Source: Algoriphagus resistens | GTDB lineage: Bacteria > Bacteroidota > Bacteroidia > Cytophagales > Cyclobacteriaceae | DNA: 64,000 nucleotides | NCBI RefSeq assembly: GCF_001442615.1 | Contig: NZ_LMXN01000001.1 | Span: 434,001-498,000 of the forward strand | Direction of reading: 5' to 3' | Shown here: one piece after another, positions 41,160 to 50,340 of the stretch | Layout: each line of letters starts with the position of its first letter | Numbering within the stretch: position 1 is the first letter of the stretch | Program-made: the position numbers and the translations under genes | Notes under the pieces: generated by a model | Database searches by the model: none | Told to the model about the DNA's origin: nothing | What the model saw: only the letters and a program-made list of their open reading frames with translations

Positions 41160-41519
41160 CGAAGTGGGTTAATTTGGTGCATCTGAGAATAAGTGCTTCC
41201 TAGGCGGAGTAACTATCCTACAGGTGACTTTTGCTTTTTTATACTATTTCTAACAAAGAAAAGCACTTAGGGTTCGGATTGGGAGCGATTATTGGGTAAG
41301 CGGTAATATGTTGAATTAAGCAGCAGTTTTCTACAGATCTTTTTAGCCTTAGCAATTACCTGGTAGCTGATGATTCAGTTTAATGCGTTGATTTTTAGTG
41401 TTCTATGGAACTGTATAAGGAAAATGACAATCTACGTCAATGTTATGTTAATTTTGCAAACATTCTTGTGTTTATAAAAACAACAATTTATCTTAGCTGG
41501 TGTTAAAACGAATCAGTTT
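41160..41519. other. Divergent promoter region
   Basis: No gene. It separates the leftward receptor from the rightward repressor pair. Near the right side, AAACA (41458-41462) and TGTTT (41469-41473) form a short inverted repeat with 6-base spacer, 47 bp upstream of the 85-residue gene; it could be an autoregulatory operator of the repressor, but it is too short to be sure. Confidence 0.4.
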
Positions 41520-41777
41520 ATGGAAAATCAGGAAAAGATCAGTATTACTACAAAGACGCTGGCATCGGGCAATTGCCAGGTGAAATTTTTCATCGAAGAC
41601 GAAGTAAAGCCTCAATATGGTTACTTGCTGGTAAATGGGCCAAAATCTGTCGGAGAAATTATCGAGGAAATCAAACTCCGTATGGAGAGAAGGCGTAATT
41701 CAGCCCTGAACATGAATCCATTTTTTCCGCTCCCAGCTGCTCCCGAGGATCATAACTTTTACTTGTACTCAGCATGA
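41520..41777 (+). CDS. Small hypothetical protein, cotranslated with repressor
   Basis: I do not recognise this 85-residue protein. It begins ENQEKISITTKTLASGNCQV, has a basic helix (IEEIKLRMERRRNSAL) and a proline-rich C terminus (PFFPLPAAPED). No membrane segment. Its stop overlaps the start of the LexA/CI-like repressor in ATGA, so they are translated together. It could be a regulator partner or a co-repressor; this is inference from coupling only. Confidence 0.7.
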   Translation: MENQEKISITTKTLASGNCQVKFFIEDEVKPQYGYLLVNGPKSVGEIIEEIKLRMERRRNSALNMNPFFPLPAAPEDHNFYLYSA

Positions 41778-42547
41778 AATTCCTTTCTTCCAATCTACGG
41801 TTTTTGCGCAAGCAAAAGGGAATTACCCAGAATGATCTCGCAGATCAGCTGGATGTGCAACGTACGATGATTTCTGCCTATGAAGACGGTAGATCAGAAC
41901 CTAAGCTTTTGACACTTGGGAAGCTTTGTGATGTGCTGGATGTAGGGATGGAGGAGTTACTGGGCCATGATATCGAAGGAAAGGGAAGAAAGGCCATTCA
42001 AAAAAGAGGAATTAACATTCTTACGATTGCCTGTGATGAAGATGAAAAGGAAAACATCACATTGGTTGGACAAAAAGCCTCAGCTGGATATTTAAACGGA
42101 TTTGCAGATACCGAGTACATGCAAAGTCTTCCTCAATTTCAGATTCCCACGCTTTCCAGGCAGGCTACTTATCGGGCCTTTGAGCTGGCCGGGGATTCTA
42201 TGCTTCCATTGACCTCTGGTACTATTGTCATCGGAGCATATGTAGATCAGCTAAAGGACATCAAAAGCGGCAAAACCTATGTGCTCGTAACCGGGACGGA
42301 AGGTGTGGTGTATAAGAGGGTTTTCAATTACCTGAATGATAACGGTAAACTATTTCTTGTTTCCGACAATGAGCAATACAAGCCTTATGAGGTGAAAGGG
42401 GAGGACGTGGTGGAGGTTTGGGAGGCGAAAGCCTTTATCAGTACCGACTTTCCCAATCCTGGGGACAAGAAAAAGCCCTTGACTTTGGAAGATCTGGGGG
42501 AAATGATTTCTGATATCCGGGCAGATCTGAGGAAGCTTAAGAGTTAG
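41774..42547 (+). CDS. XRE-type repressor with S24 (LexA/CI-like) peptidase domain
   Basis: The 257-residue protein has an N-terminal XRE helix-turn-helix (about 6-62, LRKQKGITQNDLADQLDVQR) and a C-terminal S24 fold. The catalytic dyad is visible as S142 in ELAGDSMLPL and K181 in GVVYKRVF, and an Ala-Gly dipeptide (A104-G105) precedes the domain where LexA/CI cleave. The parts for self-cleavage are therefore present, suggesting stress-induced release of repression. Targets could be its own operon or the TIR gene, whose stop codon overlaps its own by 4 bp in the opposite direction. Confidence 0.87.
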   Translation: MKFLSSNLRFLRKQKGITQNDLADQLDVQRTMISAYEDGRSEPKLLTLGKLCDVLDVGMEELLGHDIEGKGRKAIQKRGINILTIACDEDEKENITLVGQKASAGYLNGFADTEYMQSLPQFQIPTLSRQATYRAFELAGDSMLPLTSGTIVIGAYVDQLKDIKSGKTYVLVTGTEGVVYKRVFNYLNDNGKLFLVSDNEQYKPYEVKGEDVVEVWEAKAFISTDFPNPGDKKKPLTLEDLGEMISDIRADLRKLKS

Positions 42548-43614
42548 TTTCTTCTCAATTCAGCTGAACTTACGAGGCCGTTAGCCTGTGTCTGGCCTAC
42601 CCAGGATTCACCGCTGTTAGCTGACCCAAAAGAAAAGCTGTAGCTTCCTTGATCGTCGTATAGACCAAATGTGGTAGAGTATAGGTAGGTACCATCGTAT
42701 TCCCCGGTTCCCTCACCTACTTTGTTGTCAAAGTAGTAGTAGTCAAATGAATAGTATGCACCATTCTGCTCTAGCAAGAAATAGCCGGCACGGATCCCAT
42801 TTTCATATAACCACCATTTACCCGAATAATCAAAACCGGCTTGAGCAGCAGGGGGGGTAGACGGATTCTCTTCGGGTAGGAGACCCTCATTAAATTCATT
42901 TCCGGCCGGATTATCATCCATTGGCGTATTGCTTTCAGCCAGGTTCTGCTGCCCATCTACCATTTCTTCATTTTGGGTAGTGGGACTGATGTCCGTGAGG
43001 GCCTCATCTTCAGGTATAAGCCCAATAAGCAAGAGAACTACAAATGCAAAAATTACCCACAGATAATTTTTTGCCCACCAGCCTTTAGGTGGCTTGGAGA
43101 TGGGATATGGACGTGGGGTAGGGGCCGGCTCTTTTTTTTTGATTGGAGGGATAACACCCTCTATTGATTTGATCAACATCCCCACATCATATCGCCATCT
43201 GGAAATCGTGATTTCCTTCGAATGTTTTTCAGCCAGGGATTTAATGTTGTCAGGGAGCTGGCTGGTTTTGGGCAGCATTGCTTTTTTGAGCAACACAGGG
43301 ATCACCCGGGTGTCTTCCATAGTCAATGCCATTGCTACTTCTCTTCTCACCCAGTCATTTTCCTGGAAAATGCGCAAGTTCCCTTCCTCGTCTTTTACAT
43401 CTGCCCAATCAGGACCGATCAATACCAACACAACCTTACTCTGCCGTATAGTTTTTTCGATGGCATCGGCAAAATTTAACCCAGGCTCAAGAGTCTCTAT
43501 ATCGAAGAACACATTCTCTTCTCCAAAGACTTCCTCCAAGTCTTCCTTGAGCCTGCTAGCTTCACTCTGGGTGTCGCTTTGGCGGTAGCTGATAAAAATT
43601 TTCCCCTTCTGCAT
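42544..43614 (-). CDS. TIR-domain protein with membrane anchor and extracytoplasmic C-terminal domain
   Basis: The 356-residue protein has a TIR domain of the bacterial TIR_2 type (about 4-150): KIFISYRQSD, DIETLEPGLNF, VVLVLIGPDW, and WVRREVAMAL with E92 at the position of the NAD-cleaving glutamate. Next come a proline-rich linker, one membrane helix (about 183-200), an acidic linker and a 95-residue tyrosine- and glycine-rich domain (SGKWWLYENGIRAGYF, then DYYYFDNKVGEGTG) that I do not recognise. Topology should place TIR in the cytoplasm and the last domain outside. Bacterial TIR domains deplete NAD or make signals in defence. The start is fixed by the motif; a hairpin overlaps its ribosome-binding site. 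Confidence 0.87.
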   Translation of the reverse strand: MQKGKIFISYRQSDTQSEASRLKEDLEEVFGEENVFFDIETLEPGLNFADAIEKTIRQSKVVLVLIGPDWADVKDEEGNLRIFQENDWVRREVAMALTMEDTRVIPVLLKKAMLPKTSQLPDNIKSLAEKHSKEITISRWRYDVGMLIKSIEGVIPPIKKKEPAPTPRPYPISKPPKGWWAKNYLWVIFAFVVLLLIGLIPEDEALTDISPTTQNEEMVDGQQNLAESNTPMDDNPAGNEFNEGLLPEENPSTPPAAQAGFDYSGKWWLYENGIRAGYFLLEQNGAYYSFDYYYFDNKVGEGTGEYDGTYLYSTTFGLYDDQGSYSFSFGSANSGESWVGQTQANGLVSSAELRRN

Positions 43615-43659
43615 AAAAAAACCTGATTTCTTGCTAGTTAAAGTTAAGCGAATCAGGTT
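43615..43659 (-). promoter_or_regulatory. Terminator-like hairpin overlapping the TIR ribosome-binding site
   Basis: On the minus strand, AACCTGATT (43659-43651) pairs with AATCAGGTT (43628-43620) around a 22-base loop, and the T-run leads directly into the TIR ATG at 43614. The AGG 7 bases before that ATG lies in the 3' arm. It would act as a terminator of the upstream gene, or as an attenuator or translational switch for TIR. Confidence 0.7.
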
Positions 43660-43685
43660 CTTAATTGCAATGGGAAAGGGTAATT

Positions 43686-44447
43686 TTATTCTTCAATAAG
43701 ATTTTCAAATCCATCTTTTATTTTTCCAACTGCATCAAAAGAGGTATCAATGTTGATTACGCCCTTTCCCAGTTCATGCCAATAGCCATCCCCGCACTCG
43801 ATGTATGCGCCACGCTTGGTTCCAGGAGTCTCTTTGGCTATTTCGTAATTATAATCCGGTGAAAATACCAATTTCAGGAGTTGGACTGCATATTCCCAGT
43901 TGATGGTCCTTGATAGGTTTCTTGAAGTGAATACGGCTTCCCTGTTAGAGAAATTCATCGTGATGGAGCAGTCTACACTTTCCTCATTTGTTACCTGGCG
44001 GTAATTTACAGTGAGCGGGGCTTCCTTCTTGGAAGTTTCATAAATAGCCTGAATGATATCCTGGGCAAGCAGTTGCCACATTTCTTGTTCCGCCGGAACT
44101 TTTGCATTACCTATTTTGCCACCCTCTATAGCAGAAAGGGTGAGTCCCCCTTCATCCAACTGCTTACCACTCCATTTTACTTTTTCGAATGCTATGGAAA
44201 CTACCTTTTTCCACACCGGATCAAGTTTACCTGTGAAGCTGAAATCATCGTTGGTGGTGAATCCTTCATCGAGAATTTCATCTTCGCTAAGATCTTCTCT
44301 GTCAGTATAATGCAGTTCTAATCCAGCGATTAAATCCGAGTTGCTCCAGTCCAGTGAAAGTCTGTATACATTACTATAAGGAGGAGGGATTATTCCTGAA
44401 TCATAGTCAAATACTACTCCGTTTACGTGATCATTACTCTTATTCAT
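43686..44447 (-). CDS. Unrecognised 253-residue protein upstream of the TIR gene
   Basis: No family is recognised. The protein is acidic, without signal or membrane segment, so probably cytoplasmic. It has an N-terminal beta-rich part (VYRLSLDWSNSDLIAGLELH) and a middle block (VSIAFEKVKWSGKQLDEGGL, then TLSAIEGGKI). The C-terminal half has VDCSITMNFSNREAVFTSRN and INWEYAVQLLKLVFSPDYNY. It is encoded 71 bp upstream of the TIR gene on the same strand, with the attenuator-like hairpin between. It may be a TIR partner or immunity protein, by position only. Confidence 0.7.
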   Translation of the reverse strand: MNKSNDHVNGVVFDYDSGIIPPPYSNVYRLSLDWSNSDLIAGLELHYTDREDLSEDEILDEGFTTNDDFSFTGKLDPVWKKVVSIAFEKVKWSGKQLDEGGLTLSAIEGGKIGNAKVPAEQEMWQLLAQDIIQAIYETSKKEAPLTVNYRQVTNEESVDCSITMNFSNREAVFTSRNLSRTINWEYAVQLLKLVFSPDYNYEIAKETPGTKRGAYIECGDGYWHELGKGVINIDTSFDAVGKIKDGFENLIEE

Positions 44448-49281: not shown

Positions 49282-49866
49282 ATGGAAACCTTAAGGAATT
49301 TAAAGCGCCATTTACGCCGTGGAAGTGTGTATCGGAGATCTGCCTTGGAGCGATGGTCAAATTCCGTGGATAGGCATTTGAAACAGCTTTTAACTGAGGG
49401 GACTTTGCAAAAATTATATCAAGGGGTTTACTACTATCCAAGGGAAACGGTATTCGGAGTTGCACCTCCGGAAGAGTCTGCTTTGGTTCGATCCTTCTTA
49501 AAAGATGATGAGTTTTTGATCACTTCCCCCAATGCCTATAATTCTTTAGAGGTGGGAACTACCCAGCTTTACAATAAGCGAGTGGTCTATAATCACAAGC
49601 GTCATGGCGAATTTGATCTTGGCGGTCGGAAGTTCTTTTTCCACGTGAAGCCTAAGTTTCCCAAGAATCTCAGTCTTGAATTTCTGCTGGTTGATTTGGT
49701 CAATAATCTAGACTCATTGGGCGAGGACAAGGCGATGATTCTATCAAAGGCTAAAGAGAAAGCCAGAAAGCTTGACCTTGTTAAATTGAAGCGTACTGTC
49801 TCAGCCTATGGCGGAGCAAAAGCCAAAAAAGTGTTTTCATCGATCCTAGAGACTCAGCATGTCTGA
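49282..49866 (+). CDS. AbiEi-like antitoxin (DUF6088 type)
   Basis: The 194-residue protein has an N-terminal winged-helix region (RRGSVYRRSALERWSNSVDR, then HLKQLLTEGTLQKLYQGVYY) and a C-terminal AbiEi-like part (FLITSPNAYNSLEVGTTQLY, then FFFHVKPKFPKNLSLEFLLV). This is the antitoxin and repressor of type IV toxin-antitoxin systems. It appears full-length. Its last 8 bp overlap the broken toxin gene downstream, the normal AbiE arrangement. Since the toxin has lost its middle, this antitoxin is now orphaned, at least at this locus. Confidence 0.85.
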   Translation: METLRNLKRHLRRGSVYRRSALERWSNSVDRHLKQLLTEGTLQKLYQGVYYYPRETVFGVAPPEESALVRSFLKDDEFLITSPNAYNSLEVGTTQLYNKRVVYNHKRHGEFDLGGRKFFFHVKPKFPKNLSLEFLLVDLVNNLDSLGEDKAMILSKAKEKARKLDLVKLKRTVSAYGGAKAKKVFSSILETQHV

Positions 49867-50340
49867 TCAATACCTGCATGAACGGAAAGATTTCATTGAT
49901 CTTCTTAGAATCCTAGAACAGGAAACAGGTATTCAAATTCAGCTGATAGAAAAGGATTATTGGATCATGCACGTACTGTATGGATTAAAAAAGCAGGGAT
50001 TCGAATTTGAGCTTAAGGGTGGAACGTCCTTGAAAAGGAAACAGGCGAGAAGAAAGCCAATTTGATGCGTCAGTATTATGATCTTTACTGCCTTTTGAAT
50101 GAGACGGAGGTTAAGAATTTCATCGGCACTGAAGCTTATTTTAGGCATAAAAAAGCCCGCTTTCCAAAGAAAGACTTTGAAATTCCCATAAGAGAAAACC
50201 AAGCGTTTCTACTCAGCGAGCCTGAACAAAGGTCTGATTTTGAGGCAAGATATAAAGCGACTTCTGCCTTATATTATGACAGACAACCTGAGTTTGGTGA
50301 ATTGCTGGAAAGATTAAAATCGAATATAATAGATTTATGA
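49859..50340 (+). pseudogene. AbiEii/AbiGii nucleotidyltransferase toxin, internal deletion
   Basis: The 5' part codes for about 58 residues of AbiEii (DFIDLLRILEQETGIQI, then LIEKDYWIMHVLYGLKKQGF and ELKGGTSL), and then diverges at about 50033. The C-terminal part resumes in another frame: ANLMRQYYDLYCLLNETEV, then RFPKKDFEIPIRENQAFLLS to the usual end. Full-length toxins are roughly 300 residues; the missing segment would include the S-x-D-x-D nucleotidyltransferase site just after GGTS. A deletion with frame change is the simplest reading. It is probably inactive. Confidence 0.85.

Follow-up and report, generated by a model that had tools for sequence, protein, structure and literature searches.

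An Algoriphagus membrane TIR protein with an outer domain exchanged between alleles at a fixed locus

Layout and distribution of the locus

The window, a stretch of 64,000 nucleotides from a genome of the genus Algoriphagus, carries the gene of a TIR protein and, upstream of it, that of a 253-residue neighbour called its partner in the first-pass annotation; both open reading frames were recovered where that annotation had placed them (Table 1). The TIR gene converges with the gene of an XRE/S24 regulator, and the stops of the two genes overlap by 4 nt. Among the 72 genomes of the genus, the TIR gene was found at one fixed chromosomal spot in 42, of which 38 have a single copy at the locus. 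It is absent from 12 of the 50 high-quality genomes, its presence and absence imply at least seven changes on the partner tree, and the alleles fall into four TIR classes. Matches to the TIR part were found in five plasmid records, all of which cover less than 80% of the protein. The TIR gene follows the neighbour gene on the same strand at a spacing of 63-74 nt in all 42 TIR-carrying genomes, and gene order is kept in the same 42, so the arrangement is not due to chance. Neighbourhoods were read in these 42 genomes and in 23 of the 28 TIR-less ones having the neighbour gene. An AbiEi-type gene lies 5 kb from the TIR locus, and in one of the 23 TIR-less neighbourhoods (G027) a 96-residue frame lies between the neighbour gene and the XRE gene.

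Table 1. Features of the TIR locus (positions in the window)
Feature	Position	Strand	Basis
XRE/S24 regulator, convergent with the TIR gene	41774..42547	(+)	HTH_3 + Peptidase_S24
TIR-TM-outer domain gene, 356 aa	42544..43614	(-)	ORF; 46 copies in 42/72 genus genomes
Outer domain, residues 265-355, eight strands; exchanged part	42550..42822	(-)	AF2 model
Acidic low-confidence linker, residues 199-262	42829..43020	(-)	AF2 model
Membrane helix, residues 179-198	43021..43080	(-)	AF2 model; sequence
Cytoplasmic TIR domain, residues 3-154, E92 catalytic position	43153..43608	(-)	TIR_2; SARM1 fold; E92 = SARM1 E642
Conserved spacer between neighbour and TIR genes	43615..43685	(-)	Single match in own genome
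Inverted-repeat arms	43620-43628 / 43651-43659	(-)	Conserved spacer
TAACTTTA -7-like box	43639-43646	(-)	Conserved spacer
Spacer TTG	43668-43670	(-)	Conserved spacer
253-aa neighbour ("partner") gene	43686..44447	(-)	ORF; occurs with or without the TIR gene
N-terminal half of neighbour, residues 6-147, Mago nashi-like fold	44007..44432	(-)	AF2 mean pLDDT 93.2; 1p27_A

The spacer has a conserved terminator/promoter-like hairpin, and a T-run abuts the TIR start codon. The hairpin alignment (A6) comprises 34 of the 42 spacers. Those left out are G001, G018, G327 and G332, in which a different hairpin of TCCCTGA and TCAGGGA stands ahead of the T-run, G035, G326 and G333, with a variant of the hairpin, and G014, where it is weak. 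The presumed XRE operator, a TGTTTATAAAAACA-like sequence upstream of an 85-residue gene, occurs with and without the TIR gene and was not seen in the neighbour-TIR spacers; control of the TIR gene by the XRE/S24 regulator therefore has no support. The neighbours searched against Pfam comprise enoyl-CoA-hydratase and AMP-binding enzymes, a DUF2141 protein, an outer-membrane protein and the regulator, which puts the locus outside any obvious defence island.

The TIR protein and its neighbour

The TIR_2 domain (PF13676) of the first-pass annotation was detected at residues 6-115 with 56.9 bits against a cut-off of 28 (E 3.6e-15). Structural comparison upheld the catalytic TIR fold, the model matching SARM1 (6o0q_A) over 137 residues with Z 19.4 and rmsd 1.7. 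In the alignment, the proposed catalytic position E92 does correspond to SARM1 E642, and D38, E43, G45 and F48 correspond to D594, E599, G601 and F603; all five residues are invariant in the 46 TIR copies. W88 (SARM1 W638) is replaced by F in the class C copies (15/46). NADase activity is predicted for this domain.

The single membrane helix and the acidic linker were also borne out by the AF2 model: the helix follows the TIR domain on its C-terminal side, and pLDDT is under 50 at residues 203-254 of the linker. Lys before and Asp/Glu after the helix suggest an N-in, C-out orientation. The proposed C-terminal outer domain stands apart in the model and is predicted with confidence. It has no family in Pfam searches and is a small beta domain, probably a barrel as read from its eight successive modelled strands. 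The 47th Foldseek match is a structure of the lipocalin/fatty-acid-binding type (1cbr_A, E 1.1e-4, TMt 0.42, rmsd 6.4, the aligned part being unstated). The matches listed in a second fold search (VIA) were taken up by the TIR domain, and Lipocalin_4 was matched by one of 32 outer-domain members (E 0.097). Five residues of the outer domain are invariant in all 32 aligned sequences, and its profile (A5) was built from 30 of 41 domains and two outsiders. Outside the genus, only the TIR-membrane protein L197 matches both the TIR and the outer-domain profile; L238 (Methylomonas) and L278 (from a gammaproteobacterium) resemble the outer domain by eye only. A phage origin of the outer domain was rejected: the domain encoded in the window had no tblastn match among phages, and a PHROGs search with the outer domains matched only five families, each by one member (best E 0.015). 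In BFVD the second-ranked match is A0A6J5MD96, the model of a 108-residue phage protein (TMt 0.71, rmsd 2.9, aligned part unstated); the part matched is presumably the outer domain.

The neighbour, read from its sequence as cytoplasmic, belongs to no recognised family, in agreement with the first reading, as searches of Pfam, NCBIfam and PADLOC gave no meaningful score. A Pfam scan of 36 members of its family gave scattered weak matches (best E 0.0034, in one member), and the partner alignment (A2) uses 36 of 41 sequences. The modelled N-terminal half matches Mago (1p27_A) with Z 10.1 and rmsd 3.3 over 116 of 144 residues. The eight top matches of this fold search are all Mago entries (Z 8.2-10.1), followed by a trypanosomatid protein (Z 7.2) and then a match at Z 3.9. 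Foldseek alone gave no match for the neighbour at E <= 0.001, and the profile of its family found nothing in PDB by hmmsearch at E <= 10. PF02792 did not match the neighbour; in the own genome it has a single match, at another place and below the cut-off (18.6 of 27 bits), as in three of 14 controls. No report of a Mago fold in bacteria was found among the literature matches listed, and a protein of this kind would extend the fold beyond the eukaryotes.

Exchange of the outer domain between alleles

The TIR locus is an allelic mosaic in which the outer domain is exchanged. Partner identity reaches at least 93% in seven pairs; five of these (four independent sets) share just 21-53% identity in the outer domain, while two keep 95%. 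The five swapped pairs are 94-99% identical in the TIR domain, 93-99% in the partner and 70-100% in the other neighbours compared. Synonymous divergence jumps as well, which argues for exchange and not mere mutation: the proportions of synonymous sites differing in the TIR and outer parts are 0.17 and 0.75 for G016/G023, 0.21 and 0.68 for G030/G026, and 0.14 and 0.69 for G035/G333. The pair G028/G324 has the reverse pattern (0.54 and 0.19). Along G016/G023, 120-base segments starting at 120 to 2760 have nucleotide identities of 90-100%, the three outer-domain segments 39-52%, and the next three, in the XRE gene, 97-100%. The right edge of the exchanged stretch is the 3' end of the XRE/S24 gene, and the drop in identity among close relatives starts at about residue 200-260, varying by pair.

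In addition, the TIR and outer-domain trees conflict: on the TIR tree the outer type changes at least 13 times. Shared clades are rejected by AU tests, with p-values that are too small since the groups were picked after the trees were seen. Mean identity is lowest in the outer domain among the parts compared (34%). The G350 copy, which has an unrelated tail in place of the outer domain, was left out of the identities and of the second outer-domain tree, and forms a very long branch in the first; four short tandem copies have no outer domain. Wherever dN/dS could be computed within an outer-domain type it is well below 1, and there is thus no direct sign of site-level positive selection. Sampling was of one genome per species, and polymorphism within populations shows only in comparisons of near-identical species and of two genomes named A. 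marincola.

DGR diversification of the outer domain was rejected, as the own genome has no RVT_1 match at E <= 0.001 (three of 14 controls did match) and the locus has no direct repeats of at least 30 bases. Silent outer-domain cassettes were also rejected; of 12 genus genomes sampled, the seven that matched had one match each. The earlier proposal of a sensor fused to the TIR domain beyond the membrane gained support from the separate modelling of the outer domain, its exchange among near-identical alleles and the matching domain on L197. We infer that the outer domain is a ligand-binding sensor.

Interpretation and comparison with known systems

We give an even chance to the reading that this protein is a TIR NADase receptor in the membrane, that the swapping of alleles diversifies its periplasmic sensor, and that it serves to recognise phages or neighbouring cells. 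A SARM1-like cytoplasmic TIR domain would be followed by a single membrane helix, a flexible acidic linker and, in the periplasm, a small beta domain. An external ligand bound by the outer domain would cluster the TIR domains, which would then cleave NAD+, and the cell would be stopped or killed. The fixed address holds alternative alleles, varying in presence, in TIR class and in outer-domain type, and the outer-domain types are exchanged by recombination between two conserved flanks, the TIR-TM part and the end of the XRE gene. A ligand that varies, as phage components and the surface molecules of neighbouring cells do, would be expected to bring about such diversity. Against this reading count the setting outside any obvious defence island, the weak PADLOC matches, the F in class C copies, the low dN/dS within outer-domain types and the two close pairs whose outer domains stay 95% identical. 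The same alarm with an exchanged sensor among close relatives suggests either an arms race or a means of self-recognition, and a role in defence or recognition would be the presumed function. More tentatively, the locus may encode a strain-polymorphic, single-gene surveillance receptor of Toll-like layout, with a repertoire kept and shuffled by homologous recombination at one address, as a bacterial counterpart of immune receptors or allorecognition. An outer sensor swapped between near-identical genomes hints at what a membrane TIR protein senses, and natural allele pairs (such as G016/G023 or the two genomes named A. marincola) already offer the means to test specificity.

It is rather unlikely that the system serves self-recognition or kin discrimination proper, the outer domain reading a molecule of neighbouring cells, a match or mismatch triggering the TIR domain and frequency-dependent selection keeping the alleles. 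Allelic exchange at a fixed locus, the repeated changes in presence and absence, and near-identical genomes with different outer domains all fit this reading, but with an anchor in the inner membrane and a linker of about 60 residues the domain would lie in the periplasm and not reach the surface, no gene for a cognate ligand was recognised beside the TIR gene, and phage sensing fits the same data. A housekeeping sensor of envelope stress or of a ligand, which signals without killing, through a TIR scaffold or a nucleotide product, and whose outer domains differ by niche, is an unlikely explanation. The stable, mostly single-copy chromosomal address, the lack of a plasmid record covering 80% of the protein and the purifying selection within outer-domain types are consistent with it; against it stand the absence of the gene from 12 of the 50 high-quality genomes and the retained SARM1-like catalytic residues, and divergent replacement of the outer domain between near-identical loci would be unusual for such a sensor.

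A two-gene system, with the 253-residue protein as sensor or, as the first-pass annotation had proposed, as modulator or immunity protein for the TIR protein, we regard as improbable. The genes are adjacent and closely spaced on one strand, and in the genus the TIR gene never occurs without its neighbour; this half of the expected co-occurrence was seen, whereas the other was not, since of the 72 genomes 70 have the neighbour gene and 42 the TIR gene, and 28 of the 70 (12 of the 50 high-quality genomes) have only the former. Adjacency says little here, as other genes of the stretch are equally constant neighbours. The neighbour also occurs in seven of 22 genomes of the order's other genera, none of which matched this TIR protein, and in six other-genera genomes no match to the TIR protein adjoins the neighbour gene. 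A menE-like frame lies near the neighbour gene at five of nine loci outside the genus (three directly upstream on the same strand), a count that is a lower bound since three of the nine loci extend only about 1.5 kb per side, and that points to no function. This distribution and the promoter-like hairpin between the genes speak against a modulator or immunity protein; a dedicated partner is rejected on the presence/absence data and the loci of other genera, and the neighbour is probably an independent gene. Finally, neutral drift of an unconstrained, decaying outer domain is hardly credible, for although that domain has the lowest mean identity and is replaced or missing in the G350 and short tandem copies, dN/dS is well below 1 within types, five residues are invariant, and the jump in synonymous divergence requires replacement and not drift.

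To our knowledge, bacterial TIR effectors have mostly been studied with intracellular sensors. The membrane receptor proposed here shares a TIR domain with the effectors of Thoeris (ThsB, ThcB4), TIR-SAVED CBASS and TIR-APAZ (SPARTA), and the fold search with the TIR model matched several SPARTA structures. Sequence matches to defence TIR families concern the TIR part only and lie under the cut-offs where these exist (ThsB_TIR 18.5 against 21.2, ThcB4 31 against 220), the PADLOC matches being weak. Among nine window proteins searched with Pfam there is no SAVED, Macro, SIR2, SLOG or Ago protein, and thus no linked ThsA. The TIR-SAVED match in PADLOC spans residues 3-72 and profile positions 13-79 of 404; where TIR-SAVED CBASS has SAVED C-terminal to TIR, the Algoriphagus protein has its eight-strand domain. 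Putative antigen sensors diversified by DGRs use a reverse transcriptase and C-terminal lectin domains, with TIR among the domains depicted on the targets (Dore et al. 2024, PMC10907252). They share with our protein the idea of an effector with a diversifying sensor domain, but the Algoriphagus diversity arises by domain exchange in a protein whose own genome has no RVT_1 match. The neighbour is like Mago nashi of the exon junction complex in the fold of residues 6-147, and differs in being bacterial, 7% identical and without a sequence link, with an additional C-terminal half. The fold and aligned active-site residues of the TIR domain are those of the NAD+ hydrolase SARM1, which has cytoplasmic ARM-SAM regulators, unlike the Algoriphagus protein with its membrane helix and outer domain. 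Toll-like receptors combine an outer sensor of leucine-rich repeats, one membrane helix and an inner TIR domain. The Algoriphagus protein is like them in this layout only, without a claim of membership, and departs from them in its N-terminal TIR domain (a reversed chain order), in a small beta domain in place of leucine-rich repeats and in a TIR domain of the catalytic type.

Architecture of the TIR protein and its locus

A profile search assigned residues 6-115 of the TIR protein to TIR_2 (56.9 bits, cut-off 28), and human SARM1 (6o0q_A) superposes on this part with a Z of 19.4 and an rmsd of 1.7 over 137 residues. In the alignment, E92, D38, E43, G45, F48 and W88 correspond to SARM1 E642, D594, E599, G601, F603 and W638, respectively. 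The first five are invariant in all 46 copies from the genus Algoriphagus; the W88 position is F in 15 of the 46, all class C (classes defined below). The structure model places one predicted helix at residues 179-198, followed by a low-confidence acidic stretch, and an outer domain of eight strands at residues 265-355 (pLDDT about 91-97 per ten residues). The TIR_2 domain with E92, the single helix and the acidic stretch listed in the first-pass annotation are therefore borne out. Because Lys precedes the helix and Asp/Glu follow it, the sequence suggests that the TIR domain lies on the inner side of the membrane and the outer domain on the outer side. The same genome encodes a second TIR_2 protein elsewhere.

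The TIR gene was found in 42 of the 72 genus genomes (38 of the 50 high-quality ones). In all 42, it lies immediately downstream of the 253-aa gene, with the XRE/S24 gene opposing it on the other side. Over a longer stretch come, in order, genes of enoyl-CoA-hydratase-like and AMP-binding type, which we take to be menB- and menE-like from their ECH_1 and AMP-binding matches, DUF2141, in some genomes a 203-aa gene (oxygenase-like, in our impression, by appearance), the 253-aa gene, TIR, XRE/S24 and an 85-aa gene. At the TIR-less loci (23 read of 28), the XRE gene comes after the 253-aa gene with no TIR gene between; the exception in layout is a 96-aa frame between the two in genome G027. Shorter tandem TIR-membrane copies adjoin the full-length gene in G295, G331, G335 and G342. 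TGTTTATAAAAACA precedes the 85-aa and XRE/S24 genes here; of the 57 loci listed, most have a similar sequence at that place, TIR present or absent, and it is probably the operator of the XRE/S24 regulator itself.

Coordinates of the features discussed (window positions unless a locus is named)
Feature	Position	Strand	Remark
TGTTTATAAAAACA	41469-41482		putative operator
XRE/S24 gene	41774-42547	+	convergent with TIR gene
TIR-membrane helix-outer domain gene	42544-43614	-	356 aa; downstream of 253-aa gene
253-aa gene	43686-44447	-	
AbiEi-type gene	49282-49866		PADLOC AbiEi, E 1.2e-86
68-aa frame	49859-50065		after AbiEi-type gene; by eye resembles AbiEii start; stops early
Shorter tandem TIR-membrane copies	loci L172, L177, L178, L184		without outer domain; adjoin full-length gene
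Second TIR_2 protein	locus L282 (G000:C34:305443-305775)		open frame of 565 aa

The 253-aa neighbour and the spacer

The 253-aa gene had been proposed as a dedicated partner of the TIR gene, a modulator or immunity protein. Its distribution speaks against this: it is present in 70/72 genus genomes (counting G003, where only a fragment stands at the end of a contig) and in 50/50 high-quality ones, versus 42/72 for TIR. It also occurs in 7 of 22 genomes from other genera of the order, none of which has a match to the TIR protein; the sole weak TIR match in that sample is in G055, which lacks the 253-aa gene. All eight carriers among the 395 genomes of the phylum sample belong to the order. The neighbour is probably independent of the TIR gene.

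For its model (mean pLDDT 93.2), Foldseek returned nothing at E <= 0.001. The top eight VIA-align rows were Mago nashi entries (Z 8.2-10.1), the best being 1p27_A (7% identity, Z 10.1, rmsd 3.3 over 116 of 144 residues); next came a protein from a trypanosomatid (Z 7.2), followed by other folds at Z 3.9 and below. Residues 6-147 are thus predicted to share the fold of Mago nashi, with no function implied. A sequence link between the two proteins was looked for and none was found. To our knowledge, this fold is known from eukaryotes only.

Between the two genes lies a conserved stem, AACCTGATT..AATCAGGTT, with a T-run reaching the TIR start codon. Four of its ten pairs have changes on both sides among the 34 spacers aligned (of 42). 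The loop holds TAnnTTTA, with TTG about 20 bases upstream. The Bacteroidota consensus (PMC6847099, PMC9723704) is TANNTTTG at -7 and TTTG at -33, the latter much less evident in the data of PMC6847099 itself. We therefore read the spacer as a terminator-like hairpin carrying a putative TIR promoter in its loop. The final letter of the box is mostly A, not G, among the aligned spacers, and the motif occurs once in this genome.

Exchange of the outer domain

The outer domain has been swapped between alleles of the TIR gene, and the close pairs are decisive. In five of the seven pairs with neighbour identity >= 93%, the outer domains are 21-53% identical, with TIR at 94-99% and the remaining neighbours compared at 70-100%; in the other two, the outer domain is still 95% identical. 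The five pairs form four independent sets: G016/G023, G030/G026, G024/G336, and G333 versus G035 and G326 (G035 and G333 taken as A. marincola HL-49 and DSM 16067). In 120-base windows, G016 and G023 are 90-100% identical upstream; identity falls to 39-52% in three outer-domain windows, rises to 97-100% over the following three, in the XRE gene, is 76-99% deeper in that gene, and is low once more where the aligned stretch ends. The proportion of differing synonymous sites jumps from TIR to outer domain (0.17 to 0.75, 0.21 to 0.68 and 0.14 to 0.69) and, in the opposite direction, falls from 0.54 to 0.19 in G028/G324, so the two halves have different histories. Mean identities over 820 pairs (41 full-length copies) are 57% for TIR, 34% for the outer domain and 62% for the neighbour, against 82% (XRE), 72% (85-aa), 55% (menE-like) and 43% (DUF2141) for controls; since DUF2141 varies too, the low outer-domain mean is weak evidence alone.

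The trees agree with exchange. TIRs fall into four classes on their tree (A1, A2, B and C), and the biggest clade of outer domains (14 rows, support 100/99) draws its TIRs from all four. AU tests rejected uniting these 14 rows on the TIR tree (p 8e-79), and class A2 (seven of its rows; p 4e-11) or class C (p 6e-4) on the outer tree, p-values that are over-sharp because the groups were chosen with the trees already in view. By parsimony, outer type changes at least 13 times on the TIR tree; on a quick neighbour tree of 65 genomes, the minimum changes are 12 for outer type, 10 for TIR class and 7 for TIR presence. The copy of G350 (taken as A. winogradskyi) has an unrelated outer part.

The outer-domain profile matches 9/291 order genomes (seven in the genus) and 8/395 phylum genomes (three in the genus). 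We read four of the seven matching proteins outside the genus. In other families, the domain sits on TIR-less proteins with a single predicted membrane segment (L101:1498-2133, L102:1483-2373 and L194), and L197 is the only TIR-membrane protein among those read. We infer a module attached to various membrane anchors.

Possible function and related systems

In the proposed mechanism, a ligand would bind the periplasmic outer domain and cluster the TIR domains, which would then cleave NAD+ and arrest the cell. Sensor exchange with conserved sequence on either side is consistent with a ligand that changes, of phage or neighbour origin. Against this mechanism, a clear defence-island context was not seen at the locus, and site-level positive selection was not detected. 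Among the matches listed (titles and abstract starts), no description of this protein family was found in the literature; PMC7159879 and PMC13142454 deal with TIR in other contexts. Among these matches, the nearest published idea is that of DGR-diversified sensors (PMC10907252).
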